From a virus: a stretch of DNA of 64,000 nt. The position numbers and the translations under genes are program-made. The notes under the pieces are model-generated. The model was not told where the DNA came from. It ran no database searches and was given only the letters and a program-made list of their open reading frames with translations. Below, in pieces: positions 28,330 through 45,640 of the stretch (its first letter is position 1; each line of letters opens with the position of its first letter). Location of the stretch: IMG/VR virus record IMGVR_UViG_3300020180_000013, positions 32,196 through 96,195 of that record; one strand, written 5' to 3'.

Positions 28330-28518
28330 TTAATTTAAAGAAACTCTTGCTACTGCATCAGTAAAAACTTTATTACCTGGAGTTGATACAAAATTTGCTA
28401 TATCCTGTAAAGTAGATCGTTTAGCTGTAGTTGTCCCAAAAGGGACTATAGGAAAAATATCTCCTCCTGAAAGAGGAGGAGCTGGATCAAATTGATCTAC
28501 TCTTTTATTTATTGCCAT
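28330..28518 (-). CDS. Short fibre paralogue: anchor domain only
   Basis: 62 residues. The sequence MAINKRVDQFDPAPPLSGGD, IFPIV, STLQDIANFV matches the first 45 residues of the next two genes upstream (MAVDKRVDQF... LTDILPIVQG... TTLQDIKDAV). Here almost nothing follows the anchor except TPGNKVFTDAVARVSLN. It could be a functional cap or competitor subunit, or a fibre that lost its distal part. It follows the previous paralogue by 2 bases, so the three are one operon of duplicated genes. Confidence 0.6.
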   Translation of the reverse strand: MAINKRVDQFDPAPPLSGGDIFPIVPFGTTTAKRSTLQDIANFVSTPGNKVFTDAVARVSLN

Positions 28519-28520
28519 GA

Positions 28521-29063
28521 TTATACAGGAATTATTTTATATTTTAAATAAATTAATATATCACTATTTCCTGCTGTAGGATTTCCAGTAAAGACATATG
28601 CTTGAACTTTTTTATTTTCTTCAAGCTGTGCTGGATTAGAATGAGCTGCAGCCATACTAACACCAAAAGATGGTATCCAGATACAAGTTCCTGCATTTGC
28701 TAATCTCTCAGTAAATCCATTTATTACAGTTAAACTAGTATCATATACTAATCCTAAAGTTGTATTTGTTGCGTATGGAGTTCCTCCATAAGTTCTTATC
28801 TTAAAGATAGCTACTGTAACTAAATTAGCAAAACCAATTCCAGGACTTGGAATTAAGTCTATAGGAGTTGAATTTAAAGTAAGAACATCTGCAGAAAGGA
28901 TAGTAGTCTCTACTGTAAACTCATCATTTACTGCATCTTTGATGTCTTGTAAAGTAGTTTGTAAAGCAGCAGTTCCAGCTCCTTGAACTATAGGAAGAAT
29001 ATCTGTTAGAGCAAGTGGTGTGGTTGCTAATCCAAATTGGTCTACTCTTTTGTCTACTGCCAT
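28521..29063 (-). CDS. Fibre/decoration paralogue with shared N-terminal anchor
   Basis: 180 residues. Residues 1-45 are the KRVDQF...ILPIVQG anchor shared with 28330-28518 and 29129-30493; residues about 50-180 form a single beta-rich domain (VATVAIFKIRTYGGTPYA-like strands, ILIYLKYKIIPV end) of the sort found at fibre tips. Its ATG lies inside the first copy of a 23-base tandem repeat (29062-29130), so its translation leader has been triplicated. A head or tail fibre subunit is likely; the receptor is unknown. Confidence 0.65.
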   Translation of the reverse strand: MAVDKRVDQFGLATTPLALTDILPIVQGAGTAALQTTLQDIKDAVNDEFTVETTILSADVLTLNSTPIDLIPSPGIGFANLVTVAIFKIRTYGGTPYATNTTLGLVYDTSLTVINGFTERLANAGTCIWIPSFGVSMAAAHSNPAQLEENKKVQAYVFTGNPTAGNSDILIYLKYKIIPV

Positions 29064-29130
29064 GATTGATTTAGTTTTATAATTATGATTGATTTAGTTT
29101 TATAATTATGATTGATTTAGTTTTATAATT
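29062..29130 (-). repeat. Three exact tandem copies of a 23-bp translation leader
   Basis: The unit starting atgattgatttag occurs at 29062-29084, 29085-29107 and 29108-29130 with no mismatches. On the minus strand each copy contains AAAACTAAATCAATC followed by ATG, i.e. the leader and start codon of the 28521-29063 gene. Only the last copy on that strand is followed by the real gene. The other two ATGs read into AATTATAAAACTAAATC and are not in the gene's frame (23 is not a multiple of 3). Confidence 0.95.
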
Positions 29131-30493
29131 ATACTACTGCTGCATCTACTACAAGAGTTCCTACTAATATAGTAGTATTTCCATTGATAGCCAAGTTAGC
29201 TACAGATGTTCCATATACATGGACATTTTCAGCTGTAACACTATTTATAGAATTAGCTCCTGCTCCTGCAATAAGAGTGGTAGAGTTTAATATTAAAGTT
29301 GAAGCAAAATCTTTTCTAATTGCTTCTGTTGCTGCAGCTGGTGTTATAACTCTACAAGAGTTTAGTATTAGTACTCCACTACCAAAATTAATAACTGGTA
29401 CAAATAGTGTACTTGTTATAGTTCCTCCATTGACAATTATTTGTCCTCCTACAGCTGCTCCACTATTATTTACAGCAACTGCTCCTGCAGCACTACTACT
29501 TATATCTCCATTAAATACACATCTTCCTGTAGATCCTAATTGATAACCATGTGCTGAAGCATTTGATCCTGATGTAGTATTTCCATTAACTGTAAGATTT
29601 CCGTAACCTGTTGTAGTACCACATATACCAAGTGTATTTGTACTATTTCCATTAAGAATGGTTGATCCTGCAGAGATCACTATATTGGCAGCATTACTAG
29701 ATGCATTGATATTACCATTCATAGTTATAGTTCCTCCGGTATTGGTAATTGCTTGACCTGCTGAATTTGTGATATTTCCATTTAAAGTAGCAGTTCCTGC
29801 AGATATTAAAATACCTCCACTAGTACTAACTATATTTCCATTGGAAACTAGTATACCTGCTTGTACTTGTATAGGTGTTCCATTAGTAGTATTTACAGTA
29901 CCGTAAGTTGTTAGTGTACCGTTAGTAAGAAGAATAGTATTAAGAAGGTTGGAATTAAAATTATTAGCATATACTGTAACTACACTTCCTGCATTCTGAA
30001 GTCTAATAGCATGGCCATTTGTTCCTGCTGTAGTTCTTTGTATAGTGTGGGCATTATATATAACACTATTACAAGCTATATTATTATCATCAATAGCAGC
30101 TAGTACTCCTGCTGCCAGATCTATAGATCCTCCATTGAGGTCCCAATCAATAAAATTACCTAGAACTATGCCTTCTGCAGAATTAAAGTTTTTTACACTA
30201 ATACTTATCCTTTTGGTAGCACTAGGAGTTAATGCTGCTGCTGCAATTGAAGCTGCTGCTTTGGTTAAAAAAGGCAAATCTGCCCTTTCAGCCAGACCAG
30301 TACTATCTGATCCAAAACTTTCATCTACAAATACAGTATTTGAAACAGGTAATTGTAATGCTCCATCTCTTATATCTGCAAGAGTACATTGTAAAGCAGC
30401 AGTACCTGGTCCTTGAACTACAGGGAAAATATCTGTTAAAGCTAGTGGTACTACAGCTAAGTTAAATTGATCGACTCTTTTATCTACTGCCAT
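29129..30493 (-). CDS. Beta-helix fibre/spike protein with shared N-terminal anchor
   Basis: 454 residues. Residues 1-45 are the KRVDQF anchor; VFVDESFGSDSTGLAERADLPF at about 55-76 is the usual lead-in to a right-handed beta-helix, and the rest is made of short repeats rich in N-G-N, N-T-x-G and L-x-G-N (ITNTGGTITMNGNINA and similar), as in pectate-lyase-like spikes. Such proteins sit on the virion surface and bind or cleave glycans. No catalytic residues can be picked out by eye. It is the first of three tandem paralogues; the leader carries the AAAACTAAAT motif. Confidence 0.75.
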   Translation of the reverse strand: MAVDKRVDQFNLAVVPLALTDIFPVVQGPGTAALQCTLADIRDGALQLPVSNTVFVDESFGSDSTGLAERADLPFLTKAAASIAAAALTPSATKRISISVKNFNSAEGIVLGNFIDWDLNGGSIDLAAGVLAAIDDNNIACNSVIYNAHTIQRTTAGTNGHAIRLQNAGSVVTVYANNFNSNLLNTILLTNGTLTTYGTVNTTNGTPIQVQAGILVSNGNIVSTSGGILISAGTATLNGNITNSAGQAITNTGGTITMNGNINASSNAANIVISAGSTILNGNSTNTLGICGTTTGYGNLTVNGNTTSGSNASAHGYQLGSTGRCVFNGDISSSAAGAVAVNNSGAAVGGQIIVNGGTITSTLFVPVINFGSGVLILNSCRVITPAAATEAIRKDFASTLILNSTTLIAGAGANSINSVTAENVHVYGTSVANLAINGNTTILVGTLVVDAAVV

Positions 30494-30513: not shown

Positions 30514-32079
30514 TTATCCTAAAAGCCATTTTGATCCATCAAGTTGTAAGAAGTATCCTCTGGCCGGGTCTCCTGCTGTACCTGTCCATAACCAGAATGA
30601 TCCCGGTAATGTAGATACTGTTCCAAAAGGACAGAAGATATCAACTCCATCTACAGTCACTACTGCTCTTATTTTATATGTAGTTCCTGAAGTCACACCT
30701 GCACCACTAAATGTTCCACCTACTGGGCCTATTGCAGGATTAATGAAGTTCATAGAAGTTACCAAAGTAACTCCTGCTGCATCATACAACTGAATAGTAT
30801 ATGTTATAGGTGTTCCTACTATATTATTAAATGTGAATGGAATGGTTGTCTCAGTAGGAGTAGTAGTTATAGTAGGACAAGCTGTAGTATTAACTATAGT
30901 ATAATTAATCTCTCTCTCACAGGTTGTATTAGTTGAAGGATTAGTCCAGCATCCAAATAGCTCAAGATTGAAATTACAAGCAAGGCTTAAAGGTGTTGCA
31001 GAAATATCTATTGAGTATCCTGGTATGTTATTAACATATGTTAATACCGGTATATTAGTAATTAACTGTGTTCCAAAACAATCTGTAATTATTAACTCAT
31101 TTCCTGCAGAGAAGCAATCTATAAATCCTGCAGGTACTGAGCCGGTAAAGAATAGTGTAATTATTGTACCTGAGAAAGTAGCTGTCATATTAATTACTAA
31201 AGCCTCACATCCTGTAGGACAACATGTTTCTTGAATATTTTTAACTGCAGCTCTTAAATCACATATAGTGATCCACATGTTATTGATTGAGTCTGCTAGA
31301 TCATTATAATTTACTTGAGTGATCCATCCTGAGAGACTACCCATATTTACTCCAGGAAGTCCTAGTGACTGCTCTAGATCTAGACCGGCACATTGTTTCT
31401 GTATAGATAGAAATATATCATTAGGTGTTCCTGTTGCCGATCTGAGCTCGCAGAACTGTTGTTCTAAAGCTGCAACTATTGTAGATATTGGTACTGGATC
31501 AGAAGGTGGTGGAGTGATTACACAAACCGGAAACATTGTTACTTCTGGTTGTGGAACATCACTGCAGCAGTTTAATTCGATATAAGTTAACCTTGCTTCA
31601 TGATTAGCAAGAGTCTGTTGTATAGTAGTAATAGTCTGTAGTATAGTGCAGATCTTATTTCCAATTGCAGTAACATAGTCTGTTAACTGCATTGTAGTGA
31701 TCTGGTCTCCTAATTGATTTATAAAATAGAAACAAGGAGCAATATTAACTACACAATCAGGACATCCTGTAGGTGTAGGAGGAGCTTCTCCATTACAGCA
31801 CTGTTCTAGTGTACATATCTTATCTAGAACAAATTGTAAAAGATCATGAATATTTTCCGGGGTAGGACAAATTGGGTTAAAACAGGTAAGATCAAAAGTA
31901 TTAATATCTAATTGATCAACTAATGTACAGAGCTCCTGGGCTAACTTAGCTACTACATCACTTACAGAATCCCCTTTACATAGTGTTATACAAGGAATAT
32001 CAGGTCCTTGCCAGATAACACAGTTAGAGGATATTGGATTACACCCCTCTTGATTTGTATTTGATTGTATTGGAAGCAT
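30514..32079 (-). CDS. Modular head/tail fibre protein with anchor and beta domains
   Basis: 521 residues, taking the ATG at 32079 (MLPIQSNTNQEGCNP). A longer open frame upstream to 32265 encodes hydrophobic junk-like sequence and overlaps the end of the upstream gene, so I reject it. The N-terminal part has the NCVIWQGPDIPC and CKGDSVSDVVAKLAQELC anchor common in crAss-like fibres, followed by Cys-rich helical repeats (FVLDKICTLEQCC, ICTILQTITTIQQTL). The last 200 residues look like two beta-sandwich domains and end in SFWLWTGTAGDPARGYFLQL, a C-terminal cap also visible after the amber codon of the preceding gene. Receptor-facing fibre by inference. Confidence 0.7.
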   Translation of the reverse strand: MLPIQSNTNQEGCNPISSNCVIWQGPDIPCITLCKGDSVSDVVAKLAQELCTLVDQLDINTFDLTCFNPICPTPENIHDLLQFVLDKICTLEQCCNGEAPPTPTGCPDCVVNIAPCFYFINQLGDQITTMQLTDYVTAIGNKICTILQTITTIQQTLANHEARLTYIELNCCSDVPQPEVTMFPVCVITPPPSDPVPISTIVAALEQQFCELRSATGTPNDIFLSIQKQCAGLDLEQSLGLPGVNMGSLSGWITQVNYNDLADSINNMWITICDLRAAVKNIQETCCPTGCEALVINMTATFSGTIITLFFTGSVPAGFIDCFSAGNELIITDCFGTQLITNIPVLTYVNNIPGYSIDISATPLSLACNFNLELFGCWTNPSTNTTCEREINYTIVNTTACPTITTTPTETTIPFTFNNIVGTPITYTIQLYDAAGVTLVTSMNFINPAIGPVGGTFSGAGVTSGTTYKIRAVVTVDGVDIFCPFGTVSTLPGSFWLWTGTAGDPARGYFLQLDGSKWLLG

Positions 32080-32137: not shown

Positions 32138-32212
32138 CTAAAGTAGCCAAAAAGTTTCATCATCTTGTAAAAAGAAAGCTTCAGTAGAAGTACCACCATC
32201 ACCTTCATATAA
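32138..32212 (-). other. In-frame C-terminal extension behind an amber codon
   Basis: Directly after the TAG that ends the 824-residue protein, the same frame continues for 24 sense codons (LYEGDGGTSTEAFFLQDDET then FWLL) to a second TAG at 32138-32140. FFLQDDETFWLL resembles GYFLQLDGSKWLL at the end of the next gene's product. The segment is therefore either a readthrough extension or a tail cut off by a recent amber mutation. Confidence 0.6.
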
Positions 32213-34687
32213 CTATGCATCTGTAACAGCCGGGATTGGAGGTATTGGACAATCTGATAATTCACTACATATCATTGTACCACATAGGATTTCGTCATTT
32301 GTTCCTACATAAAATAAACATCCCCCTATCTCTCCTTGAGCTGTAGTATTCACTCTCTGAAGTAATATACAAATACCTGTTTCATCAAAAGTGATTATCT
32401 CTAAATTAACTGAAGATATAGATATAGATGCTGTAAGCAGTGCTTGTAGTTGATCTATAGTAGAAGTTGTAGATAATGTAACCGGAGTATTAATTGCTGC
32501 ACCTCCTATTGTGAATGCAAAAATACTTGAAATAGTATCTTCCGTATTAAACTCAGCAACACATAACTTAGTATAGCACATCTCTCCATTAAATACATGT
32601 GCAGGAGCTGGGCATGGAAACATTGAATTACTTGCTGAACAAGTAGAACATGGATTACAAGTATTACACTTGTTTACTTGACAACATGTAGAAATAGTAT
32701 TGCATGGATTAGGAAAACATGCATTGATTTGTTCAGGACAATAATTGGGATCTACTAGTTTACTTAAGTCAGATAATTGCTTTCTTAACCATAGTTGAGG
32801 TAAATGAATACCTTCACAACAAGTACCTACTCCATATTTTAGCTTTTTAACAACCTTATAGAATCCTTCACCAAATCTCTTGTTATCATTAATATCACAT
32901 TCTCTCTCATCTATCTTATAAAAGATCCTTACTGGATCAGGTATAACTTTAGCTGGAGGAGGAATAGGTATTATAACTTTTGGTATACAGCATTCACAAT
33001 CTGCATAGATCCCGGGATTATATGAAGTAATAACTACTGCATCATCACATGTACCACTTATAGATACTAACCAACATAATATAGGATCTATCTCAGGTCC
33101 TCCTTCAATAACTAGCTCATTAACAATCTTACCTACTATTTCAGCCAGGTTTGATGTAGTTACAATAGGATCTTCTACACCAGTGCAATTGGTTAATAAA
33201 TAACATATAGGGGGATTACACTCTAAACAATCTGCAAAGACTGTAATTACAGGATCTACTATTACTCCAATAGTATTATCACAATTATTTGCTAATGATA
33301 CAGTCCAACAGATATCTCCAAATGATTCTATCTTAATAGTCTGCCCTAGATATACTTCAAAGTCATTAGATACTGTAATAGGTATATGAGGATCTGTATC
33401 AGAACAGTCTGTTAATATATAACAAGTTGGATTACATGTATCACAATCTGAAAAACTAGTAATAGTATATCCTCCAGGAAGTCCTATAGATCCAACACAT
33501 GATCCGGCCAATGTTACTTGCCAACAAATATCCCCATATGAAGATACTTTAATTGTCTGACCTACATATGCACTTAGATCATTAGATATAACCTGAGTAG
33601 GCTCAACACTTTCACAATCAGTTATCAAATAACATATTGGAGGTGCACATGTTTCACAACTAGTGAATGAAGTTATTACTGCTCCTGGTAATGGATTTGG
33701 ACCTGGAAAATCTACATCATTACATGAAATCTGAGTTACTGTCCAGCATGTATCCGGATCTAAACTAGTTCCTGATACTTTAATTGCTCCTATTCCTATA
33801 TAGGGTGCTACTACATCATTATTTGTTATTACTATATTTTGAGGGTTAGCACAATCTATTAATTGATAACAACATACTATAGGTGCTGACTCTATTTTTA
33901 CACACTGGTAGTCTTGACCAGGACATAATGATAGAATATATCCGGGGGCACACTGGTATCCTTGTATCTCAGCTAGTTCAAAATAACTGGATACTCTACT
34001 CATACTAGAATATATAGTTACTGCAGCTAATTGAACTGGTGAAACATAAGATAATAATTGAGCTAATGTTGCATTATAGATCTCTGCTGCAAATCCTGCA
34101 GTAGCTCCTCCTCTACTTAATCCTTCAAAAGAGAGGATATTGGTTCCGGCCTGAAGTGTAATTGGAAATACATGCCAATACTGATATGGAAATTGTGTAG
34201 AATAAGTTGTAGTTTGAACAAATACTTGACCATTTAACTTAATTCTAAATTCATTTTCTGCAGAAATACCTATATAGTAAGTGGTCTCTTGTAGTAATTC
34301 TAAACAGAATGTAAATCCAATCCACTCATTTACATGTTGAACTGGATTTTGATCATCACAAATCCATACACCGGCATTATTTAATCTACCATTATTTACA
34401 TTGCCATTGCCCCATAATACTGTAGGACCACTAGAATTAGTTACAAGAAGTGTATTATTTATTCCATCTAGAAATCTATCTGGAGTTATAGCTGACGTTA
34501 TGGGTAATGGTCTACTATTAGTTGATTCATAAAATAGAGCTCCATTTAGGTTATACTTTGGTTGTCTAATTAAACTACATACCTGATTAATAGGATATCC
34601 TGAAAGATTTCCAATAGTAATTTTCTGGCAGCCAGAACCATCTGGAGTAATCTGATAACCTGGAGGACAATTACATTCTAGAGCCAT
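32213..34687 (-). CDS. Multi-repeat Cys-rich virion protein, receptor-facing
   Basis: 824 residues. An EGF-like Cys start (CNCPPGYQITPDGSGC) is followed by a PA14/galactose-binding-like beta domain at about 110-200 (TYYIGISAENEFRIKLNG). From about residue 273 at least four repeats of about 70 residues begin CYxLxDC and end in CWxVxxxxxC with a YxGQTIK core. The C-terminal part has a CNTCNPCSTC cluster. It ends at TAG 32213-32215, with a coding-like extension behind it. It starts 15 bases after the zinc-ribbon-like gene. Repeat-built, Cys-rich architecture and position point to a surface appendage. Confidence 0.65.
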   Translation of the reverse strand: MALECNCPPGYQITPDGSGCQKITIGNLSGYPINQVCSLIRQPKYNLNGALFYESTNSRPLPITSAITPDRFLDGINNTLLVTNSSGPTVLWGNGNVNNGRLNNAGVWICDDQNPVQHVNEWIGFTFCLELLQETTYYIGISAENEFRIKLNGQVFVQTTTYSTQFPYQYWHVFPITLQAGTNILSFEGLSRGGATAGFAAEIYNATLAQLLSYVSPVQLAAVTIYSSMSRVSSYFELAEIQGYQCAPGYILSLCPGQDYQCVKIESAPIVCCYQLIDCANPQNIVITNNDVVAPYIGIGAIKVSGTSLDPDTCWTVTQISCNDVDFPGPNPLPGAVITSFTSCETCAPPICYLITDCESVEPTQVISNDLSAYVGQTIKVSSYGDICWQVTLAGSCVGSIGLPGGYTITSFSDCDTCNPTCYILTDCSDTDPHIPITVSNDFEVYLGQTIKIESFGDICWTVSLANNCDNTIGVIVDPVITVFADCLECNPPICYLLTNCTGVEDPIVTTSNLAEIVGKIVNELVIEGGPEIDPILCWLVSISGTCDDAVVITSYNPGIYADCECCIPKVIIPIPPPAKVIPDPVRIFYKIDERECDINDNKRFGEGFYKVVKKLKYGVGTCCEGIHLPQLWLRKQLSDLSKLVDPNYCPEQINACFPNPCNTISTCCQVNKCNTCNPCSTCSASNSMFPCPAPAHVFNGEMCYTKLCVAEFNTEDTISSIFAFTIGGAAINTPVTLSTTSTIDQLQALLTASISISSVNLEIITFDETGICILLQRVNTTAQGEIGGCLFYVGTNDEILCGTMICSELSDCPIPPIPAVTDA

Positions 34688-34932: not shown

Positions 34933-35523
34933 CTATAAATTTCCAATACAGGCTCTGGATATATTTGATCTAGCTATTTTTAATGTATCTGCTGCTTCTT
35001 TTATACAATTCCATTCTTTTATTAATAGATTATCTTTTGTATATTGATAAATCTTTTTCATTTGTTTCTTCCCTGGATTGATATCTGATAACATTCTTTG
35101 TCTATTAGATTCATCTACTCCATTTAGTTTGTTTATATTAGCAACTCTTCTAGCTATAGAGGACTCTTTCATAGGATTTCTATCTGATTTCATCCTTTCT
35201 ATAATTGCTTTATTATTTTGTCTTCCTGTTCCTCCATCTCCACCAATAGTTCCGTTAGTTAATTTACAGAAACTTTTATAATGTTTTATTAATTCTATTT
35301 CACAAAAATTTAGATTTGATTCAGAACCTGTATATAATATTTTAAAACTAGGTTTTATATTATTAATTTTCAATAATCTTATCCATTTCTGTTTATGAGT
35401 ACCTAGATATTTTTCTGTTAAATGTTTACTTAATCTAGACTTAGGAAATAAAGTTTTTCCAATGTATCTAATTTGATCATTTCTAGGATCAACTAATGCA
35501 TATATATGTCCTTGTCTTTCCAT
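34933..35523 (-). CDS. GIY-YIG homing endonuclease with C-terminal NUMOD1-like end
   Basis: 196 residues from ATG 35523; a GTG 7 codons upstream would overlap the previous gene and is less likely. GHIY at 5-8 and YIG at 20-22 form the GIY-YIG core, with CEIELIKHY carrying the catalytic Glu. The C-terminus (YTKDNLLIKEWNCIKEAADT, ISRACIGNL) is the start of a NUMOD1 helix-turn-helix and stops at TAG earlier than usual, so the DNA-binding end may be shortened. The start is one base after the stop of the 185-residue gene, as for a precise insertion. Confidence 0.85.
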   Translation of the reverse strand: MERQGHIYALVDPRNDQIRYIGKTLFPKSRLSKHLTEKYLGTHKQKWIRLLKINNIKPSFKILYTGSESNLNFCEIELIKHYKSFCKLTNGTIGGDGGTGRQNNKAIIERMKSDRNPMKESSIARRVANINKLNGVDESNRQRMLSDINPGKKQMKKIYQYTKDNLLIKEWNCIKEAADTLKIARSNISRACIGNL

Positions 35524-35524
35524 A

Positions 35525-36082
35525 TTAACAATTTCCACACCCACATAAACAACTTAATTTATTTAGTCTCTTTAATGCATATAAATAAATATCCATTCCA
35601 TGTTTTGGTGAATGACAGTATTCTACTTTTGCTTTTGCTGCATCAAATAATGTTCTTATGAACTGAAGTTCTCTAATGAACTTATCTATCTCTGCAGTAG
35701 GATCACAACCTCTTATATCAAGACAACATAATACATTACTGTATTTTTTTAGTGCTGATGTTATTCTTAAATGATTATATTCTACAAAGACTATATCATT
35801 GGGAGAAACACTATATCTTGCAATATATACTCCATCTGGTAGGGTATTGAATGTAGTAGTGCAATTAGTTGTTTGAATACCTAAAGCACATGCTGTGATA
35901 TTCTCTATAAATCCGGGTTCTATATCTGGTACTATAGAAGCTTCCCAAAATCCTGGACTTGTTATTTCTAACTTAGGACACTCAAGAGGAATAGTAGGAT
36001 CATAAACTGAAGTATCTATAACTCTTATAATGCAAGAGTTCAGTACATCAGGTATTTCTAGACTTAGGACATGTTTTGCCAT
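35525..36082 (-). CDS. Conserved crAss-like head/tail connector-region protein
   Basis: 185 residues. The N-terminal half is beta-rich (VLSLEIPDVLNSCIIRVIDT, PDGVYIARYSVSP) and the C-terminal half helical (AEIDKFIRELQFIRTLFDAA) ending in CLCGCGNC, a candidate metal-binding tail. This beta-then-helix layout with a Cys tail recurs in crAss-like genomes near the head protein genes. It follows a strong terminator, so it starts a new transcript together with the fibre genes. The exact function is not known to me. Confidence 0.6.
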   Translation of the reverse strand: MAKHVLSLEIPDVLNSCIIRVIDTSVYDPTIPLECPKLEITSPGFWEASIVPDIEPGFIENITACALGIQTTNCTTTFNTLPDGVYIARYSVSPNDIVFVEYNHLRITSALKKYSNVLCCLDIRGCDPTAEIDKFIRELQFIRTLFDAAKAKVEYCHSPKHGMDIYLYALKRLNKLSCLCGCGNC

Positions 36083-36117
36083 AGGTTAAATGTATAAATA
36101 AAGTTAATTAAAAATAA

Positions 36118-36152
36118 AAAAGGGAAGGAAGTTTTTGTCCTCCTTCCCTTTT
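36118..36152 (-). terminator. Strong rho-independent terminator
   Basis: A 12-bp perfect stem (AAAAGGGAAGGA with TCCTTCCCTTTT) around an 11-base loop; on the minus strand it is followed by TTTTTATTTTTAATT. It lies 20 bases after the stop of the 702-residue gene at 36172 and separates it from the next transcript. Confidence 0.9.
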
Positions 36153-36171
36153 CTTTACCAATTCATACAAT

Positions 36172-38280
36172 TTATCCTGCTTCTACTACAGTGATTGAGT
36201 AAACAACATTTGTCTGACATCCATTAGTATCAACTACTGATACTGTGAACTCATATGTTCCGGTAGTAGTTGGTGTTCCTGTGATATCACCTGTTGTAGC
36301 ACCTAGTACTAAACCTGGAGGTAAAGCACCAGCTGTAACTTCAAAGCTATAAGGAGCTGTTCCACCTGATACTGCAATTGGAGTGAATACATATGGTATA
36401 TCTACTGTTCCACCTGATACTGCACCAGCTGTTGGTACAAAGGTAAGAATAGCACAAGCACCAGGACAAGCTGCCCCACATGCATATGTTTCAAGTGCTA
36501 TTGAACAATTACAAGCTGTTAACCAGGTTGCCATTGTAGACTCAAATGTAGCACTAACTGCAGTAGTTATGATCTCTAATAGATATTGATCATTATCAAA
36601 TACTCCAGTTGGGTTATTAAACCTTGGAACACTATGTAAGATAAAGTATCTATAGTATTGAGCTGATCTAATAATTGCACTAGATATATCATATCCTTGA
36701 GTTACTTCTCTAATACGAAGATCTTCTCCAGTATAGAAGTAATTCTGCATATAGCTTTCTGATAAGATCAAGTCTCTTAAAACTTGTTCACCAAAGCCCA
36801 TACCTTGTCTTGGAGGACATTGCTCAACTATACAAAGACCAGTGAATGCACATACATCTCCTGTTTCATCTACTTCAGAAGGGAGGATTTTAACTGGTTC
36901 TTTCTCAAAATAATCAGTTGGATAGAAAGTACAATCTCCAAATTTAGTGTCAATAAAGGCACCCATAATTTTCATACCTGCACAAGCACCATCAATATGG
37001 CCTGGAGATACGTAATTATCCCATGTTGGAGTCACTGTTGCAGTAACTGTAAGTACTAATCCTGTTCCTGGTGATAACAAAGGAGAAGTTAAAGTATCTC
37101 CTACTGCATAACTTAAACCTGGATTATTAAATACTACTGCAGTTACTACTCCACCGGCAACTGTTACTGTTGCTACAGCTCCAACACCTGAACCAGAACT
37201 TTGGAATGTTACATTAGTAAATGTACCATTGTTATATCCCGAACCAGCATTAGTGATAGTTGCTGCACCAACACCTGGACTTAAATCAAATCCACCAGTG
37301 TCACCAACTTTAATATCTTGGCCTGGAGCATACCATCCAACACCATTTTCATCATAGATTACTATATTCAAGAATGGACCTACAATTCTATTTGCAAGAA
37401 GTTCATTAGCCCATCCAATAAATACTAAAGTAGAATCAACTGGTACCGGAGTTCCACAACCTGCAGGGCAACATCCAGTGTAAGATGCAGTAGTCCAGTA
37501 TCCATTACGAGATAAGTATCTCAATTCTGGTGAACCTTTAACATCTACTCTTAAGAAGTATGTTTCATCACATAAAAACTCTTTGCAGCATGTAACATCA
37601 GTTACTGCTGTGATAGCTGCTACAGTTAGTACTGCTGCAGTACCAGGAGTAAAAGTAATACCAGTTACACCAAGTACATTACCTACATCATAGAAACTAC
37701 CTGGAGCAGTAATAGCAACTGCAGTGATCGCACCACCAGCTACTGTTACTGTTGCAAGGGCACCGTTACCAACTGCACCAGTTAATACTATGTTAGTATA
37801 AGTACCATTAGTGTATCCTGTTCCAGCACCAGTAATAGTTACTGAGGCTACTCCACCACCATTAGTATAAGGAGTATTACCTACATGCACCACATTTTGG
37901 TTAGGTGTACAAGGATCTACTCTATAAAATCTGTTTACGTATTTAGGATTGATCATTTTAGATTTGGTTGATTCCTGGTATCCACCATGGAAAGGACCAA
38001 TCTTGTCATGTTGATATAAAGCAGTACTTGCTAGAATCAACGGTGCTCCAGTTGTAATCTGGGCATCAGCAGCAACTACTGATAAATAAGTTTTTGGATC
38101 AAAGAGTCCAAATACACCTAATCCTAATTGGTAAGGTGATGCTCTATTGATTAATTGTACACTAGGTACTCCGGATGTTACCAAGAATCCTGTGGTTACT
38201 CCAGAGTGGGATCCATCAGCTGCCTGAGTAGGATGTGTCCCAATAAAGAGTTTTGCAAATGCATGATTGAAATAAGCCAT
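36172..38280 (-). CDS. Abundant head/tail surface protein with inserted repeats and Ig-like end
   Basis: 702 residues. The core (MAYFNHAFAKLFIGTHPTQA; QLGLGVFGLFDPKTYLSV; ILPSEVDETGDVC; EQVLRDLILSESYMQN) reads like a conserved crAss-like virion protein. Two related insertions of about 65 residues (TGAGTGYTNGTYTNIVLTG..., TNAGSGYNNGTFTNVTFQS...) are internal repeats. The last 90 residues are an Ig-like He_PIG domain (SGGTAPYSFEVTAGALPPGL, GDITGTPTTTGTYEFTVSVV). The layout suggests a decorated major surface component, possibly carbohydrate-binding. It has its own AACTAAAAACTAAA leader and a strong terminator, as expected for a highly expressed gene. The exact virion position is uncertain. Confidence 0.65.
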   Translation of the reverse strand: MAYFNHAFAKLFIGTHPTQAADGSHSGVTTGFLVTSGVPSVQLINRASPYQLGLGVFGLFDPKTYLSVVAADAQITTGAPLILASTALYQHDKIGPFHGGYQESTKSKMINPKYVNRFYRVDPCTPNQNVVHVGNTPYTNGGGVASVTITGAGTGYTNGTYTNIVLTGAVGNGALATVTVAGGAITAVAITAPGSFYDVGNVLGVTGITFTPGTAAVLTVAAITAVTDVTCCKEFLCDETYFLRVDVKGSPELRYLSRNGYWTTASYTGCCPAGCGTPVPVDSTLVFIGWANELLANRIVGPFLNIVIYDENGVGWYAPGQDIKVGDTGGFDLSPGVGAATITNAGSGYNNGTFTNVTFQSSGSGVGAVATVTVAGGVVTAVVFNNPGLSYAVGDTLTSPLLSPGTGLVLTVTATVTPTWDNYVSPGHIDGACAGMKIMGAFIDTKFGDCTFYPTDYFEKEPVKILPSEVDETGDVCAFTGLCIVEQCPPRQGMGFGEQVLRDLILSESYMQNYFYTGEDLRIREVTQGYDISSAIIRSAQYYRYFILHSVPRFNNPTGVFDNDQYLLEIITTAVSATFESTMATWLTACNCSIALETYACGAACPGACAILTFVPTAGAVSGGTVDIPYVFTPIAVSGGTAPYSFEVTAGALPPGLVLGATTGDITGTPTTTGTYEFTVSVVDTNGCQTNVVYSITVVEAG

Positions 38281-38371
38281 TGTTTTTTAGTTTTTAGTTA
38301 TACACAAAATTTATACACATATTATAATATAAAGATAATAAATTTAAAATCCAAATAAAATATTAATTATT

Positions 38372-38800
38372 TTATTTAAGAAAAATTAATTTATATTTTG
38401 TTGAATTAAATTGGGTTTTTACATTATCAAGATCATTAATAATCTCACTATAAGGCATTTTAACTTGTAAAGCTGTTACCATTGCTATCATATCTCTAAG
38501 ATACTTTACTCCATCATCTACAGACTTCAATATTTTAGGTGATACTTCAGTATAAACTAGAAGTTTTTCACTAGCTCCTTGGTATCCTTCTGCTACATCA
38601 TCAGCAAGTCCTGGTAATGCATCATAGATTTCATTAAGAGCTTTATGACCAGCATATGATCCGGTGCCAGTAATCTTAAGATGTAACTTATGAAAAGATA
38701 CTGCAGCATTCATTAATTCTGATACACAAGCAGCTGTTAAAGAATCTACTGATCCTGTTGTAGAGGACATACTTGCTAATTTTCTTGGTATCGTGTCCAT
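38372..38800 (-). CDS. Dps/ferritin-like protein
   Basis: 142 residues, all-helical. The segment AAVSFHKLHLKITGTGSYAG followed by HKALNEIYDALPGLADDVAE has the Dps arrangement. Residues H40, H52, D67 and E71 show spacings 12, 15 and 4, the same as the ferroxidase ligands H51, H63, D78 and E82 of E. coli Dps; the fifth ligand (D67 in E. coli) is N56 here. Dps proteins bind iron and protect DNA from peroxide. The gene sits among capsid and ring genes and precedes a 91-base AT-rich gap, so the protein may be packaged or may act structurally. Iron binding is inferred. Confidence 0.7.
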   Translation of the reverse strand: MDTIPRKLASMSSTTGSVDSLTAACVSELMNAAVSFHKLHLKITGTGSYAGHKALNEIYDALPGLADDVAEGYQGASEKLLVYTEVSPKILKSVDDGVKYLRDMIAMVTALQVKMPYSEIINDLDNVKTQFNSTKYKLIFLK

Positions 38801-38809
38801 AAAATATAA

Positions 38810-39514
38810 TTAGTTATTCTTTTCTGCTGCCTGACTTTCTCTTGAGTACTGATTCATAGCTTCTATATCACCTGCTAGTATTGCTACAGTGTCATCAATG
38901 ATTACTTCAATGACATCATCTTTTAATTCTGAAGTTACATTAACTGTAACTACCTGTTGTGTTTCAAGACTTACACAACCTATAATCTGTATATTCCGGG
39001 GTTTTGTATAGTACACCATCTTTGTGGATGCTACTGTAAAATCTCCACCTGTATATACTCTGACTTTATTTCCTATTAAAGTAATAAAGGTTTCTCCCCA
39101 ATCATAACTTGGTCTTTTGTTTTCATCTTTGAGATAGTTAACAGCATTGGCTTCTTCTCCAAGATAGACTGTTATCAGGCGGGGCTCTTTGCAACAGTCT
39201 TTAGTTGCAAATAGCTCCAACCTTTTAAACTCTAAAAAATCTGCAGGTAATACACTTGATTCACTGAAGAGAGGAGCATGTACAAGTTCCATAGAAACTG
39301 TAGTTAGAAGAGTCTCAAGATCTGAAACTCTTCTTTTAGATTGCTCATCTCCTTGTCTTAGGATATTAGAACCTACTAGTTGTCTTCTGCACCATTCAAT
39401 TTGGGCCTTATTGAAAGCCTCAACAATTTGCCAGCATTCTATGTTATCATAGTCCTTGCTATCAAGCTTGTTGAGTCTTTCTTTAACCTTTATTTGAATA
39501 GCTGCATTATTCAT
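38810..39514 (-). CDS. Head-tail ring/adaptor protein candidate
   Basis: 234 residues. The helical N-terminus (KVKERLNKLDSKDYDNIECW, IVEAFNKAQIEWCRRQL) followed by a beta-rich middle (DFLEFKRLELFA, GNKVRVYTGGDF, MVYYTKPRNIQI) is the layout of ring proteins that attach below the portal in podoviral tails, including crAss-like ones. It follows the capsid genes and lies one base after two TAG stops of the 39-residue gene upstream. No catalytic motif. The ring role is from context and layout. Confidence 0.65.
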   Translation of the reverse strand: MNNAAIQIKVKERLNKLDSKDYDNIECWQIVEAFNKAQIEWCRRQLVGSNILRQGDEQSKRRVSDLETLLTTVSMELVHAPLFSESSVLPADFLEFKRLELFATKDCCKEPRLITVYLGEEANAVNYLKDENKRPSYDWGETFITLIGNKVRVYTGGDFTVASTKMVYYTKPRNIQIIGCVSLETQQVVTVNVTSELKDDVIEVIIDDTVAILAGDIEAMNQYSRESQAAEKNN

Positions 39515-39517
39515 CTA

Positions 39518-39637
39518 CTACTTCTTTTTACCCATTTTTTTAACTGCTACACCTTTCTTTACAGAAGGGTTTACTTTTGCAGAAGAATTTGAATTTTTCA
39601 TTCCTCCTGTTTTGTAAGCTGGTTTTTTAGTTGTCAT
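39518..39637 (-). CDS. Short lysine-rich basic protein
   Basis: 39 residues: MTTKKPAYKTGGMKNSNSSA then KVNPSVKKGVAVKKMGKKK. It is missed by length cut-offs, but the frame is tightly packed between two genes (2 bases upstream, stop just before the next ATG) and ends in two consecutive TAG codons. With about a third Lys it is a likely DNA- or RNA-binding virion peptide, like basic peptides found beside capsid genes. Confidence 0.6.
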   Translation of the reverse strand: MTTKKPAYKTGGMKNSNSSAKVNPSVKKGVAVKKMGKKK

Positions 39638-39639
39638 TT

Positions 39640-39831
39640 TTATTTACGATTTGATTTATCAAATGTTACTTTACCTCCTGATTCATGGCAAAATGGATAG
39701 TGTCCAGCATTTGCCTCAAATACTGACATAGGATTAGGATTTTTAACTCCTCCTACACCTTGTCCAGTTTTACCATATGCAGCTAATTTAGCAGCACCAA
39801 TAGCTGACTCTGTTTTGTTTGAATAATTCAT
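39640..39831 (-). CDS. Small virion-region protein, unknown
   Basis: 63 residues, Gly/Asn-rich and basic (AIGAAKLAAYGKTGQGVGGVK), ending ESGGKVTFDKSNRK. No domain recognised. The leader has two tandem ACTAAA units (AACTAAAACTAAAATATC) directly before the ATG. It sits in a run of three short genes between the inserted HNH gene and the ring candidate, probably small assembly or packaged proteins. Confidence 0.55.
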   Translation of the reverse strand: MNYSNKTESAIGAAKLAAYGKTGQGVGGVKNPNPMSVFEANAGHYPFCHESGGKVTFDKSNRK

Positions 39832-39853
39832 GATATTTTAGTTTTAGTTATTA

Positions 39854-40063
39854 TTAATTAGGAATTTTATTCTTATCCTGTGGAATTACTGTTTTGTACC
39901 TGGCATCCCTAGGACTTACCCGGCCAAGCTCTTTTATCTGAGCTGCATATTTAGATTCAGCATATGCTTTAGGATCTGCATACATATCATTGTATGCATC
40001 TACTAATCCAGATAGATACTCTTTGTTATCAAATTTCTGAATCTTAGGTTGTTTTATTGCCAT
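39854..40063 (-). CDS. Small virion-region protein, unknown
   Basis: 69 residues with a helical, Tyr/Ala-rich centre (LSGLVDAYNDMYADPKAYAE) and charged ends. No domain recognised. Its leader AAAACTAAATAACC overlaps the end of the HNH gene upstream (the last codons of that gene are AAA ACT AAA TAA), showing that the inserted endonuclease kept the leader of this gene intact. Confidence 0.55.
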   Translation of the reverse strand: MAIKQPKIQKFDNKEYLSGLVDAYNDMYADPKAYAESKYAAQIKELGRVSPRDARYKTVIPQDKNKIPN

Positions 40064-40065
40064 GG

Positions 40066-40554
40066 TTATTTAGTTTTAATATTATTTATAGATAAATACT
40101 TTATTAAATTTAGTAAAATTGTAGTATCATCATTAACTAGTCCTAACATGATGTTACACTTACTACATAATAAGCCTCTAACTTCTCCAGTTTTATGATC
40201 ATGATCTACTGCTAATGCTTTACTTAATTCTGATTGATGTATTTTACATATTAAACACTGACCATATTGATTAATAAATAATTTATTATAATCATCTAAA
40301 GATATATTATATTTCTTTTTATAGATACTATTTCTATAACTATTTTTATATCTTTCTTTATCATAAGAAGATCTTATTTTATCTCTCTTCCTGTTATATT
40401 TATCTACTATATGAGGATTCTTATTTCTATATTTTTTTACTCTTTTTTTAATTTCAACTTTATTTTTTAAATAATGAATATGATTTCTTTCTTTAATCCT
40501 ATTTTTATTCTTCTGATACCATTCTTTTGAATATTCTGATCTATCTTTACTCAT
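40066..40554 (-). CDS. Endonuclease VII-like HNH homing endonuclease
   Basis: 162 residues. A very basic N-terminal arm (Arg/Lys/Tyr-rich, about 1-80) precedes the endonuclease VII-type zinc/HNH core: C100xxC103, DHDH at 117-120, C130xxC133, with KTGEVRGLLCSKCN between. The arm presumably binds DNA. A close relative lies at 45127-45552 on the other side of the capsid genes. It sits between two structural genes, with its stop 2 bases before the next start, as expected for a free-standing mobile endonuclease rather than a resolvase. Confidence 0.88.
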   Translation of the reverse strand: MSKDRSEYSKEWYQKNKNRIKERNHIHYLKNKVEIKKRVKKYRNKNPHIVDKYNRKRDKIRSSYDKERYKNSYRNSIYKKKYNISLDDYNKLFINQYGQCLICKIHQSELSKALAVDHDHKTGEVRGLLCSKCNIMLGLVNDDTTILLNLIKYLSINNIKTK

Positions 40555-40561
40555 AGATCCA

Positions 40562-41578
40562 CTAACTGTTCCACTGTTTTTCTATTGCTTTCATTACAGC
40601 ATTTAATACTTGATCATTAAGAGTATTTCTGAAGAATTCCAAAATATCAGATGCATTTCTTCCTAGTAATGTATTAGAATTAATATGGTAGATAAAACCA
40701 TCTGATTTAGGAGCTATCTCTTTATAGAATGTAGCATCTTTTATAAGGGCCCTTAATTTAAGAGTCTCCATATCTAGTTCTGCTGTATCTACAAATTGTC
40801 TTGCTGCTCTTTTCTTATTAGTTTCTGATCCTTCTCCAGAGATGTATCTATCCATGTTATCATAGACAATATCATTTGGAGTACTCTTTTTATACTGTGC
40901 CGAGTTTGTGTCTACTACTTTTGCTATATAAAGAAGCTTTGTAGCATTCTTATCATATAGTTTTTGTAGTTCTGCAATAGCCCGGTTCTTAAGTTTTTTA
41001 TACTCAGTTGTAGTACTTATTGTTTCCTGGTACTTATCAAGAAAGAATTTAGGAGGAACTGCTCTTGATCTTGCATCCTCATAGTTTTTAGCAACAATAG
41101 AAAAACCACCTGCCTCTATAGCACATAACTTAATAAGATCATAAGGATCTTTATTAGGTTCAAGATATAAAGGTTCATTTCCACATCTAATTGAGATCAG
41201 ACTCCAGAATTCATGATTATCCGGTTTTAGTAATTTAACCTTATTCCAGAATTCTTTGTCATCAATTTCTATAACATTAGCTGAAAGTTGTTTCTCACAC
41301 TCTGCTACAATAGTTCTTATCTCTTTAATTCTTGCTTCTTTTAATTCTGAAGGAAGAAGTTTTACATCTGGAGCAAATTCATTAAGGCCAGTAACATATC
41401 TTTTTACACCATTCATCTCAAGACATGCTAATTGTTCTTCATGATATACACCATCATGTAAAGAAAGACCATACTTCTCTAATCCCATGTTTGACATTGA
41501 ATTATCGAAGTATGGTTTAACTGATATAGATCCATGCTTTAGCTGTGGATACTTTTCTACTATGTTTAGATTACTCAT
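40562..41578 (-). CDS. Conserved structural-region protein, unknown
   Basis: 338 residues, mainly helical (LPSELKEARIKEIRTIVAEC, KKLKNRAIAELQKLYDKNAT, ASDILEFFRNTLNDQVLNAV). No enzyme motif or signal is visible. It sits two genes after the capsid gene, where crAss-like genomes carry a conserved helical protein of about this size. The leader carries AAACCAACAATC and AAACCAACAACTA motifs. It might be an inner head protein or assembly factor. The frame is well supported; the role is not. Confidence 0.6.
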   Translation of the reverse strand: MSNLNIVEKYPQLKHGSISVKPYFDNSMSNMGLEKYGLSLHDGVYHEEQLACLEMNGVKRYVTGLNEFAPDVKLLPSELKEARIKEIRTIVAECEKQLSANVIEIDDKEFWNKVKLLKPDNHEFWSLISIRCGNEPLYLEPNKDPYDLIKLCAIEAGGFSIVAKNYEDARSRAVPPKFFLDKYQETISTTTEYKKLKNRAIAELQKLYDKNATKLLYIAKVVDTNSAQYKKSTPNDIVYDNMDRYISGEGSETNKKRAARQFVDTAELDMETLKLRALIKDATFYKEIAPKSDGFIYHINSNTLLGRNASDILEFFRNTLNDQVLNAVMKAIEKQWNS

Positions 41579-41621
41579 TAGTTGTTGGTTTTTTTGATTG
41601 TTGGTTTAACTTAATTGAAAT

Positions 41622-42047
41622 CTATTGAAATACTTTTACTGTAAAAGATCCACTGGCAGGATTAATTGCTCCTGCAGAGTAGTTGTTAAATCTTACTGTT
41701 ACTGTATCTGCTGCACTAACAAAAGCTGTATAAGATGAATTAGCATTTGGAGCAGCAGGTGTTCCTAAAGAAACTGCATTACCTACTACTGCTCCTGCTA
41801 CAGTGATTGTTAAATCAGAAGATGTTTGAGTAAGTGTATTAGGAAAATCTAAAGTAGCTGTGCCACTTAAAATAGCACCTAATGCTGCAACTGTATCAGA
41901 AATACAACATAGCATATCTATGATGTGATTAAGATGCCCAAATTTGGCCAAGGCCATATCTGCATCTTTTTTAAGGAATGGATCAGGAGATAAGGGCCTG
42001 AAGTGACAACATGCGTCTTGTGGACATTCTGGACAAACTATAGCCAT
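41622..42047 (-). CDS. Head fibre/decoration protein
   Basis: 141 residues. A Cys-rich helical N-terminus (CPECPQDACCHFRPL, HLNHIIDMLCCISDTVAAL) is followed by a C-terminal beta knob (TATLDFPNTLTQTSSDLTIT, VTVRFNNYSAGAINPASGSF) of the kind common in phage head fibres and decoration proteins. It lies directly downstream of the major capsid gene behind a hairpin, with an AAAACTTAAATAAA leader. A trimeric capsid-bound fibre is the likely state. Confidence 0.75.
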   Translation of the reverse strand: MAIVCPECPQDACCHFRPLSPDPFLKKDADMALAKFGHLNHIIDMLCCISDTVAALGAILSGTATLDFPNTLTQTSSDLTITVAGAVVGNAVSLGTPAAPNANSSYTAFVSAADTVTVRFNNYSAGAINPASGSFTVKVFQ

Positions 42048-42090
42048 TTTATTTAAGTTTTTAAATTATTAATATTTATACTCACTCCAG

Positions 42091-42130
42091 TCCTGGTCAT
42101 GCTTATGAGGTCATCTCTTGCAGACCAGGA
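42091..42130 (-). other. Hairpin between capsid and head-fibre genes
   Basis: TCCTGGTC at 42091-42098 pairs perfectly with GACCAGGA at 42123-42130 around a 24-base loop, 15 bases after the capsid stop. No T-tract follows on the minus strand, so it is not a standard terminator; mRNA processing, protection or partial attenuation after the capsid gene is more likely. Confidence 0.55.
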
Positions 42131-42145
42131 TCAGAGTCAGTAATA

Positions 42146-43762
42146 CTAGAAGCTGAATCCAGTAATAGGGTTTCTCATTACAATTTTTAACACCTTAGTT
42201 GGATCTTTAACCCAAAGAGCCGGCATTGTTTGTGTCATCATAACTCTGTATCCATTAAATTGACCAGATGATTGGAAACCTTGAGGTCTTCCCATGTAGT
42301 CCATTGTTCCATTTTGGTAGAACCATTTCAATTGGTTATCCCAAGATAGTTTCAATAAGAAGATATTATCATTACCATGATCAGTAACATCAAATATGAT
42401 GAATGAATATGATGATAATGGTCTTCCATCAATGATTGGATTTTCTATATCATTTGTATGTAAATTATCAAATGCAGGATTCAACACAAACTTAACATTA
42501 GCCAAGAAAGGGATAACATAAGAAGTGTAAGCAAATCCAAAGTTAAGATCCATTCCTGATCCTGTAATAGCTCCTACATCAGAAGCATTAATTACAAGTC
42601 CTGAATTTACTGCTTCACGTTTGATAGCTTCATTTACTAGTTTCATTCCACCAATTCCTGTTTGAACAATAAGTGATCTCTTAGGATCTGGACCTTGGAA
42701 TTCAACTTTACCGGCATAGAAATTATAAATTTCTGATTTGAATAAATCAAGAGTAAATCCTGATTTGTTATAAACCCTTTTGAAGGAGTTATCAAGTTGT
42801 CTCCAAAGACCTACTGATAATCTCATATCATCTGGACCATCTTGTTTAATTCTACCACCATGTCCCCACATTAAGTAAGTTTCAATGTCAGTAGCTACTT
42901 TACTTAAGTGAGCTGCTTCCATAGTAGTTAAGAATGTTCTGGATAAATTTCCATTTTCCATTGCTTTCTTAACATAATCTTTACCCATTACAGTAACCAT
43001 GTTCTCTAAAGAAGTAACTGAAGGATCAACATTTTTATCAAATGTTCTCCAAATTTCAGTAACTGGGATTGAACCATTAGCATTCAATCCACCTTTGATC
43101 ATAAGATCAGCTCTTGAAGAAATAGAATAGTGAACATGTGCTTCAGCTCCACCTACATAGTTGTAAAATTGACGGAAACCTGTAGCTGTTCTGATGTCAG
43201 AAAACCTTTCACCATACTCACCTCTTGCAGAACCTTTTCTGAATACTTTGGTACCTGCAGTAAGATATTTATTTTCTAAGAATTTGTAATTGTCATTGTT
43301 TACAAGTTGTACAGTATAGATGTATCCATCTCCCATTGGAAGAATGTCATCAGCTGTTATGTACATCTCAACTCCATTGTATTTGTCATAAGTGATAATA
43401 TCACCATGTCCAAATTCTCTTTTGTTGATCTTAACATGAAAAGTTGTACCATCAACACCTTTTGTTGTGTTAGTTGGTTCAATGTCTTCAATGATATAAG
43501 GTAAATCTTGTACAACTGGAGTTTCCCATTTGTATTCTCCTCTAACGTTATCTACCATGATGATGTTCTTACCACCAAAAGAAGATAGTTGATAAAGAGG
43601 CATTTCTACTTTCTGTGCCATAGCCCAAAGGTCTACTGGACCAAGATCCATAGGTTCTTCACTCTTCAACATATTCACCAAGTGATAAGAATCCACATGT
43701 GAGGATACTTGATAAGATGTATCTCTAAGGAAGATACCATTATTTAATACTGGAGTTGCCAT
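42146..43762 (-). CDS. Major capsid protein (crAss-like)
   Basis: 538 residues. Reads as the crAss-like major capsid protein, which has an HK97-type fold: MATPVLNNGIFLRDTSYQVS at the start, the middle GFRQFYNYVGGAEAHVHYSI, and KNIIMVDNVRGEYKWETPVV near residue 65. It has no transmembrane or signal segment. It follows the scaffold candidate by 48 bases with a CTAAAACAATCAAGA leader, and ends in TAG, with only two further codons before TGA. It forms the icosahedral shell together with the portal at 45641. Confidence 0.9.
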   Translation of the reverse strand: MATPVLNNGIFLRDTSYQVSSHVDSYHLVNMLKSEEPMDLGPVDLWAMAQKVEMPLYQLSSFGGKNIIMVDNVRGEYKWETPVVQDLPYIIEDIEPTNTTKGVDGTTFHVKINKREFGHGDIITYDKYNGVEMYITADDILPMGDGYIYTVQLVNNDNYKFLENKYLTAGTKVFRKGSARGEYGERFSDIRTATGFRQFYNYVGGAEAHVHYSISSRADLMIKGGLNANGSIPVTEIWRTFDKNVDPSVTSLENMVTVMGKDYVKKAMENGNLSRTFLTTMEAAHLSKVATDIETYLMWGHGGRIKQDGPDDMRLSVGLWRQLDNSFKRVYNKSGFTLDLFKSEIYNFYAGKVEFQGPDPKRSLIVQTGIGGMKLVNEAIKREAVNSGLVINASDVGAITGSGMDLNFGFAYTSYVIPFLANVKFVLNPAFDNLHTNDIENPIIDGRPLSSYSFIIFDVTDHGNDNIFLLKLSWDNQLKWFYQNGTMDYMGRPQGFQSSGQFNGYRVMMTQTMPALWVKDPTKVLKIVMRNPITGFSF

Positions 43763-43810
43763 TCTTGATTGTTTTAGTTATTATTATTTATTGTTTATTA
43801 TTATTTGTTA

Positions 43811-45091
43811 TTATCTTTTAAAGAAACCATCATTTCTTTTGACAGTTCTTACTTTTTGTTCATCTTTTTCTATAACTGGTGAAGAACTAATTTTTTTAGA
43901 TTCTTCAGTTTTTAATTTTCTTACTGTCTCTTCTACTTGTGCATTTTTGCCAATATCTTTTACCTTTGCTTTGTATCCTTCTGGATCTGCTAAAAGCCAT
44001 AGAGCTTCTGCTATTAGACCATGGTTAGGTTCAACAAACTGATACTTCTCCAAAAGGTGTCCCAAAAGATTTGTTTGTTTTCCTGATATAGATGGATAGT
44101 TTGGTTGAACTAATCCGGAATATAACATACCTTGAGTTTTCTTATCTAGTTTTATACCATTAAGTTCTGAAGGCTTTAATGTCTCATATACATTGTTCAT
44201 GTATGTAGATGATGCTTCTGATTGTTGTCTTCTTAAATTCTCTTGATAAGCTAGCTTTTGAGCTACTCTACTCTCACTCATCTTATCCAATTTAGGTTTA
44301 AACTTAGTAGCTCTATCTGCTAGTTTGTTTAAATCCTTCAAGGAGTCTATCTCCTCATTTATTTCTTCTACTGTCCCGAAATTTGTAGCCTTAAGATATT
44401 CTTTTACTATAACTTCATGGTCTTCTGGTTTTTCAGGATCTAGTGTTCTTGTTTCTTCTACTTGGGCTAGAGCCTGGAATAGAGCTTTCATATCTGTTCC
44501 ACCATCAGCATGATATTTAGCTGCATATTGTAATTCTTCCGGAAGAGAATCAAAGAACTCAATAGGAGTTTTTTCTTTAATTCTATTCTCTCTATCTGTA
44601 ATATTAGCTTCTAGTAATTCTTCAATGTCTTTTACACTATAATCATCTACTGATTTCTCATCATCAAAGGGAACAATAAGTCCTCTCTCAATAAGTTTTT
44701 TTGTAAGTTCTATAGCACCATCTTTTACAACTTTAGGTCTACCAGTAGTAGCTCCTTCATTATCTTCAGTAGCTGGTTTTTCTCCATATATCTCATCTAG
44801 AATTTCACTAAGTGCTGGAGTTATAGTTTCTTCTTTTGTAGGAGCAGCTACATTTGTGGTAGCAGTTGCAGGAGCAGCAGTCTCTGCTGGTTTAGTAGCA
44901 GGAGCTTTAGTTTCTTTTTTATTTATAAATGTTAAATCAACAGTATTTGTTCTATTAAAAATACTTGGTTTTTGACCTTCTTCAGGAAGTAATACACTGT
45001 CAGTACCTGGGGCACCTAGTATATCATTAAGATCATTATCACTGATCTCAACTTGCTGAATATTAGTTATTTCTTTTGCTATTTCTGCCAT
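43811..45091 (-). CDS. Scaffold/capsid assembly protein candidate
   Basis: 426 residues, acidic, lacking hydrophobic core sequence. It has an Ala/Thr/Pro linker at about 60-90 (KAPATKPAETAAPATATTNV), charged helices (SVDDYSVKDIEELLEANITD, LDKMSESRVAQKLAYQENLR) and a basic C-terminus. Such composition and its position between portal and major capsid genes are typical of scaffold proteins. In the crAss-like layout this slot is conserved. The leader holds AAACCAACAAACCAAC. Scaffold is an inference, not a domain match. Confidence 0.65.
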   Translation of the reverse strand: MAEIAKEITNIQQVEISDNDLNDILGAPGTDSVLLPEEGQKPSIFNRTNTVDLTFINKKETKAPATKPAETAAPATATTNVAAPTKEETITPALSEILDEIYGEKPATEDNEGATTGRPKVVKDGAIELTKKLIERGLIVPFDDEKSVDDYSVKDIEELLEANITDRENRIKEKTPIEFFDSLPEELQYAAKYHADGGTDMKALFQALAQVEETRTLDPEKPEDHEVIVKEYLKATNFGTVEEINEEIDSLKDLNKLADRATKFKPKLDKMSESRVAQKLAYQENLRRQQSEASSTYMNNVYETLKPSELNGIKLDKKTQGMLYSGLVQPNYPSISGKQTNLLGHLLEKYQFVEPNHGLIAEALWLLADPEGYKAKVKDIGKNAQVEETVRKLKTEESKKISSSPVIEKDEQKVRTVKRNDGFFKR

Positions 45092-45096
45092 TTTCT

Positions 45097-45113
45097 GTTG
45101 GTTTGTTGGTTTA
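45097..45113 (-). promoter_or_regulatory. Leader motif TAAACCAACAAACCAAC before the scaffold gene
   Basis: The same AAACCAAC unit, often doubled, precedes the starts at 34885 (34891-34906), 41578 (41579-41609) and 55611 (55612-55620). It lies 5-20 bases before each ATG where a Shine-Dalgarno would be expected. A translation leader or protein-binding mRNA site shared by a subset of genes is likely. Confidence 0.5.
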
Positions 45114-45126
45114 GGATTATGTCAAA

Positions 45127-45552
45127 TTAGTAGTTCTTTAAATAATTTATTGCATTTTCTAAGATCTGTATATTGTCTTTAGCTAATCCTATCATTACAT
45201 TACATTTAAAACATAATAATCCTCTAATTTTTCCTGTCTTGTGATCATGATCTATAGCTAGTGCTTTTTTAAATTCAACTTGATGTTTGTTACATATAGC
45301 ACATTCTCCATTTTGGAGTGTAAATAAATTATTATATTCTTCAATAGATAGATAGGGTTTATGTTTGTCTTTTAAAATACGTCTTTTAAATACTTGATTA
45401 TTCTTAAGTCCTTCTTGATATTTTCTTTGATATTCTTTCCTATCTCTTTTATGTGTTTTTGCGTATTTTCTATAATAATCCTTTCTATCTACTCTATTTT
45501 TATATTTTTTGTAATATTCTTTTTGATATTCTTTTCTATCTATCCTCTTCAT
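45127..45552 (-). CDS. Endonuclease VII-like HNH homing endonuclease
   Basis: 141 residues: a basic Arg/Lys/Tyr arm (1-66), then C84xxC87, DHDH at 101-104, C114xxC117 with KTGKIRGLLCFKCN between, matching the recombination endonuclease VII family and the paralogue at 40066-40554. It separates portal from scaffold. An 88-base gap upstream of it contains a TATATTTG box, which could give it a separate promoter. Intron-less HNH genes like this usually cut related phage DNA at the site they occupy. Confidence 0.88.
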   Translation of the reverse strand: MKRIDRKEYQKEYYKKYKNRVDRKDYYRKYAKTHKRDRKEYQRKYQEGLKNNQVFKRRILKDKHKPYLSIEEYNNLFTLQNGECAICNKHQVEFKKALAIDHDHKTGKIRGLLCFKCNVMIGLAKDNIQILENAINYLKNY

Positions 45553-45572
45553 TATTCTTTATACTGATGCAT

Positions 45573-45592
45573 CAAATATAGGTTTAAACTTA
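45573..45592 (-). promoter_or_regulatory. Possible Bacteroidota-type promoter box next to GTTTAAAC
   Basis: On the minus strand TATATTTG (45573-45580) fits the TAnnTTTG minus-7 element of Bacteroides promoters and lies 20 bases before the HNH start. A GTTTAAAC palindrome (45582-45589) directly precedes it, as in two other intergenic gaps here. I see no matching upstream TTTG, so this is tentative. The rest of the 88-base gap shows no supported gene. Confidence 0.35.
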
Positions 45593-45640
45593 TTAGATTT
45601 ATAACTAAATGTAAAATTCTTCTCATGATATGGCTATCTA

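Follow-up and report, generated by a model that had tools for sequence, protein, structure and literature searches.

A coding-like tail behind an in-frame amber codon in a fibre-type gene of a crAss-like phage: a probable recent truncation

The A1 protein of phage Q-beta is a leaky-stop extension of a virion protein, in which the stop is UGA and the extension is long and functionally required. Phage tail fibres undergo C-terminal exchange and truncation, so that domains are gained and lost among relatives. For crAss-like phages, the literature describes late genes in which TAG encodes glutamine, and a phage suppressor tRNA is not always detectable (PMC7886860); peptide proof of this recoding is available for two phages (PMC9523058). 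The recoding usually spans whole gene blocks (PMC7886860).

The locus described here can be set beside each of these systems. It shares with the code 15 crAss-like phages, in which TAG becomes glutamine (PMC7886860; PMC9523058), the crAss-like background, a late structural gene and coding that continues past TAG; however, only one site is concerned, TAG functions as a stop for the capsid gene and others, and no suppressor tRNA was found in 96 kb. The likeness to Q-beta A1 lies in a structural protein with a coding-like extension after its stop, whereas the extension here is a 24-residue tail without sign of readthrough. Variable C-termini and the gain and loss of domains are shared with tail fibres, but here the piece lost would be a small tail that is also present on the adjacent gene.

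The stretch of DNA analysed (the window, 64,000 bases in all) comes from a virus record that, judged from its sequence, is that of a crAss-like phage (Crassvirales), with a crAss-type major capsid protein, a portal and a terminase in the structural module. The capsid matches the profile phrog_11589 (2.9e-29) and phiCrAss001 gp32 (PDB 7qof; 0.00035), the portal matches phrog_6547 (4.2e-84) and TerL matches phrog_6681. Two similar small genes near the structural genes (window 40066-40554 and 45127-45552) are ~74% identical over 216 bases and may be mobile genes. Three consecutive genes on the minus strand (window 28330-30493; genes 28330, 28521 and 29129) share the N-terminus MA(V/I)(D/N)KRVDQF and differ in their C-terminal parts.

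The features of the amber site are collected in Table 1. We infer the name "fibre" from the position, repeats and C-terminal variability of the gene, since no family model matches it; nor was a usable model found for its C-terminal region or the tail. The protein carries tandem Cys-rich repeats of ~75 residues (window 32900-33900, minus strand) with the pattern CYLLTDC, CYLITDC or CYILTDC. Structure models, built without alignments, are of low confidence (mean pLDDT 40.5 and 69.1), and the sole point used from them is the terminal β-hairpin drawn for both the fibre extension and the tail of the next gene.

Table 1. Coordinates of the features at and around the amber site (window positions unless stated otherwise)
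Feature	Position	Strand	Remarks
Window	bases 32196-96195 of the virus record		record total 96,195 bases
Fibre-type structural gene	34687..32213	-	824 aa; stop TAG 32215..32213
C-terminal domain, then proline-rich linker CPIPPIPAVTDA	32216..32638	-	~residues 684-824; this phage only; homologues stop before the domain
In-frame amber TAG	32213..32215	-	linker/tail boundary
Junction around the amber site, ACAGATGCANNNTTATATGAAGG	at TAG 32213..32215		fibre-type gene
Coding-like tail LYEGDGGTSTEAFFLQDDETFWLL	32141..32212	-	24 codons; end hairpin predicted, very low confidence
Second TAG	32138..32140	-	end of the extended frame
A+T-rich spacer containing GTATATTATATTAA	32080..32137	-	58 bases
Next structural gene	30514..32079	-	521 aa; ATG 32079; start common to relatives MALPIQPSDTQAGCNPVSSNC and MKPLNLDNSPCSPISSNC
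Tail of the next gene, GSFWLWTGTAGDPARGYFLQLDGSKWLLG	30517..30603	-	29 residues; this phage only among relatives examined; matches the extension

The initial annotation placed the amber codon and the 24 open codons behind it exactly: the frame continues after the first TAG as TTA TAT GAA and so on to CTA CTT, encoding LYEGDGGTSTEAFFLQDDETFWLL, and then reaches the second TAG. Its two further claims, that the extension is coding-like and that it resembles the C-terminus of the adjacent gene, also hold under measurement. Aligned with the end of the next gene, LWTGTAGDPARGYFLQLDGSKWLL, the extension matches without gaps over all 24 residues, with 10 identities and a BLOSUM62 score of 49 that is equalled by one in 20,000 shuffles. 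When the six frames of the window are scanned with the neighbour's tail, the extension is the best match after the tail itself, and the third scores 37. Four of the 10 identical residues are encoded by different synonymous codons in the two tails; the likeness has therefore been kept as protein and does not reflect a fresh DNA copy.

The codon signal points the same way. The coding log-likelihood of the extension is +12 to +14 in the fibre frame and -5 in the next frame, while the third frame holds a stop; the signal is continuous across the first TAG and stops at the second. The 72 bases have a G+C content of 33%, as against 18% in the other 61 bases of the gap. A survey of this phage and its relatives covered 916 distinct sense-strand gene ends, of which 140 are followed by an extension of at least 12 Met-free codons; the one described here ranks first (14.4, the next being 8.4), none of the other ends surveyed showing a comparable coding-like extension. 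In a first intergenic null, 12% of windows matched the score of the extension, owing to the inclusion of a 551-base stretch (window 39515-40065); with this left out, the top real window of the clean gaps scores 2.9. The stretch holds no ORF of 100 aa, and since dropping it cut the top null score so sharply, it probably contains small genes or is in part coding.

Chance does not explain the extension. A meaningless open stretch behind an ordinary gene end would account for the length, 24 open codons being unremarkable by themselves (P ~0.10 at intergenic composition), but it would leave both the resemblance to the end of the neighbouring gene (1 in 20,000) and the codon score, which none of 20,000 simulated stop-free intergenic 24-mers reached (maximum 7.4), to coincidence, and is very improbable.

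The layout of the gap is as if the fibre gene naturally ended at the second TAG. The A+T-rich spacer that contains GTATATTATATTAA, which is found at a similar distance from the ATG of the next gene in many relatives, here sits after the second TAG, and the distance to the next gene is 58 bases from this codon and 133 from the first, the relatives having 20-55. The bases after the first TAG might instead belong to the next gene as an N-terminal extension from an ATG at 32219, in a frame that is open from 32265 into that gene. That frame reads as non-coding (codon score -5), however, and relatives start at the position of ATG 32079, which makes such an origin of the 72 bases extremely improbable.

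For comparison with relatives, 80 capsid-matched loci and 20 more were used, and a homologue of the fibre gene lies at the same place in 27 of the capsid-matched loci. The fibre gene matches these homologues to about residue 683, after which it continues with ~141 added residues, the TAG and the 24-residue tail. The homologues neither stop at the amber site nor pass it; their ends lie about 140 codons before it, and the entire C-terminal region is missing from them. In those of the same type the last residues are ...CNS, with a TAA stop 20-55 bases from the next gene. Six relatives of the next gene were aligned: four stop exactly at the point where its tail starts (...TVTTKP), one ends at nearly the same place (...LVTTT) and one has an unrelated end. 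Relatives of both genes thus lack the tail and end earlier, which indicates that in this lineage both neighbours acquired the tail module.

The C-termini of this gene pair differ greatly between relatives, and none of the collections searched contains a relative of the 141-residue C-terminal region. Both facts would suit a recombination in which a new C-terminal domain with its own TAG replaced the end of the fibre gene and left the old tail behind. Against this, the new domain and the tail share one reading frame, for which the chance is 1 in 3, and the remnant begins exactly at the tail without any piece of an older domain; we regard such an origin as quite unlikely. A diversity-generating retroelement was also considered as a candidate and was rejected, the record containing no reverse transcriptase.

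No second copy of the site or the tail was found among phages, viral contigs and genome contigs by near, protein or pattern searches. Two Kribbella matches to the tail are chance, being located within a protein that reads like an alpha/beta hydrolase, and a related contig gave one weak match, over 11 positions of a stop-containing 40-aa frame, that was likewise taken as chance. The sole near-identical contig (L098, sample 3300015360) is 99.95% identical over 11,136 bases (window 34947-46082) and does not include the fibre gene. It breaks at window 34947, inside a GIY-YIG/NUMOD1 homing-endonuclease-like gene (window 34933-35544) just before the fibre gene, which possibly reflects strain variation in the fibre region.

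In this genome TAG acts as an ordinary stop, as the initial annotation had concluded from the ends of the capsid and portal genes, both of which terminate in TAG. The capsid TAG aligns at offset 0 with TAA or TGA in 89 of 89 relatives, and the TAG of a further gene (g40562) aligns with a stop at offset 0 in 71. The genes for TerL, portal and capsid are single open frames without internal TAG, which is not the pattern of code 15, and their ends coincide with those of their relatives or differ by a few residues (portal -8 to +4). A single site of this kind, in a genome where TAG is elsewhere a stop, is at odds with the crAss-like recoding pattern.

An in-frame, coding-like sequence after a stop is what a readthrough site presents, and it is also the intact coding remnant that a recent nonsense change leaves. 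In a functional readthrough, a few ribosomes would pass the TAG by near-cognate decoding or with a host suppressor tRNA, and a few fibres per virion would carry the tail. The tail is intact and coding-like, the TAG is placed at the boundary between linker and tail, and crAss-like phages are known to decode TAG in late genes as glutamine, in some cases with no suppressor tRNA detectable in the phage (PMC7886860; PMC9523058). However, the capsid gene and others in this genome terminate at TAG, the related fibre genes have TAA as their stop and no tail, and the other gene ends surveyed on the sense strand show nothing comparable. The search for a suppressor tRNA that had been proposed at the outset returned no tRNA in the window or in the rest of the 96,195-base record, which is classed as linear and may be incomplete. 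No Rfam family matched, and the sequence after the stop folds no better than shuffled sequence (z = +0.93), so that no stimulatory structure is seen there. Such a structure is not required at every readthrough site. Functional readthrough is unlikely on this balance, and it is distinctly unlikely that the lone amber codon sets the ratio of tailed to untailed fibre forms, giving a few tips per virion.

Of the two options first offered for the site, regulated readthrough or a fresh truncation, the latter fits best, and the former found no positive evidence in a tRNA, a structure or another recoded site. A recent nonsense change has probably cut a real 24-residue C-terminal tail off the fibre gene. 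The unbroken coding signal, the position of the extension as the strongest case of the 916 gene ends and the 58-base gap, which is nearer to the 20-55 bases of relatives, all argue for truncation, and a recent event agrees with the intact state of the frame and with its codon usage. The nonsense change itself is something we infer, since the searches described above returned no sister sequence carrying a sense codon there. Two points weigh against truncation: a random mutation would hit a module boundary exactly just now and then, and an intact 24-codon remnant is equally compatible with ongoing use. That the TAG falls between linker and tail may be accidental or may reflect a selected on/off use of the tail.

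If truncation is correct, the following course of events can be proposed. The lineage would have gained the tail module on the fibre protein and on the next protein, and the 72 bases would represent the end of the fibre gene, encoding a 24-residue C-terminal module common to both neighbours. This tail probably forms a short β-hairpin tip or a contact peptide and would have been translated until recently. A recent nonsense change would then have put TAG at the boundary between linker and tail, and this change may have gone to fixation or be polymorphic in the population, a consensus error being the less likely alternative. The main product would be the tailless 824-aa protein, with readthrough in trace amounts only.

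A truncation would mean that a phage fibre has been caught while losing its tip. It would also mean that one small tail is common to two adjacent structural proteins of a single lineage, and this points to a partner or tip that they share. If the codon is instead read through, the site would represent the use of a single amber codon in a phage order known for code switching, and an intermediate step.
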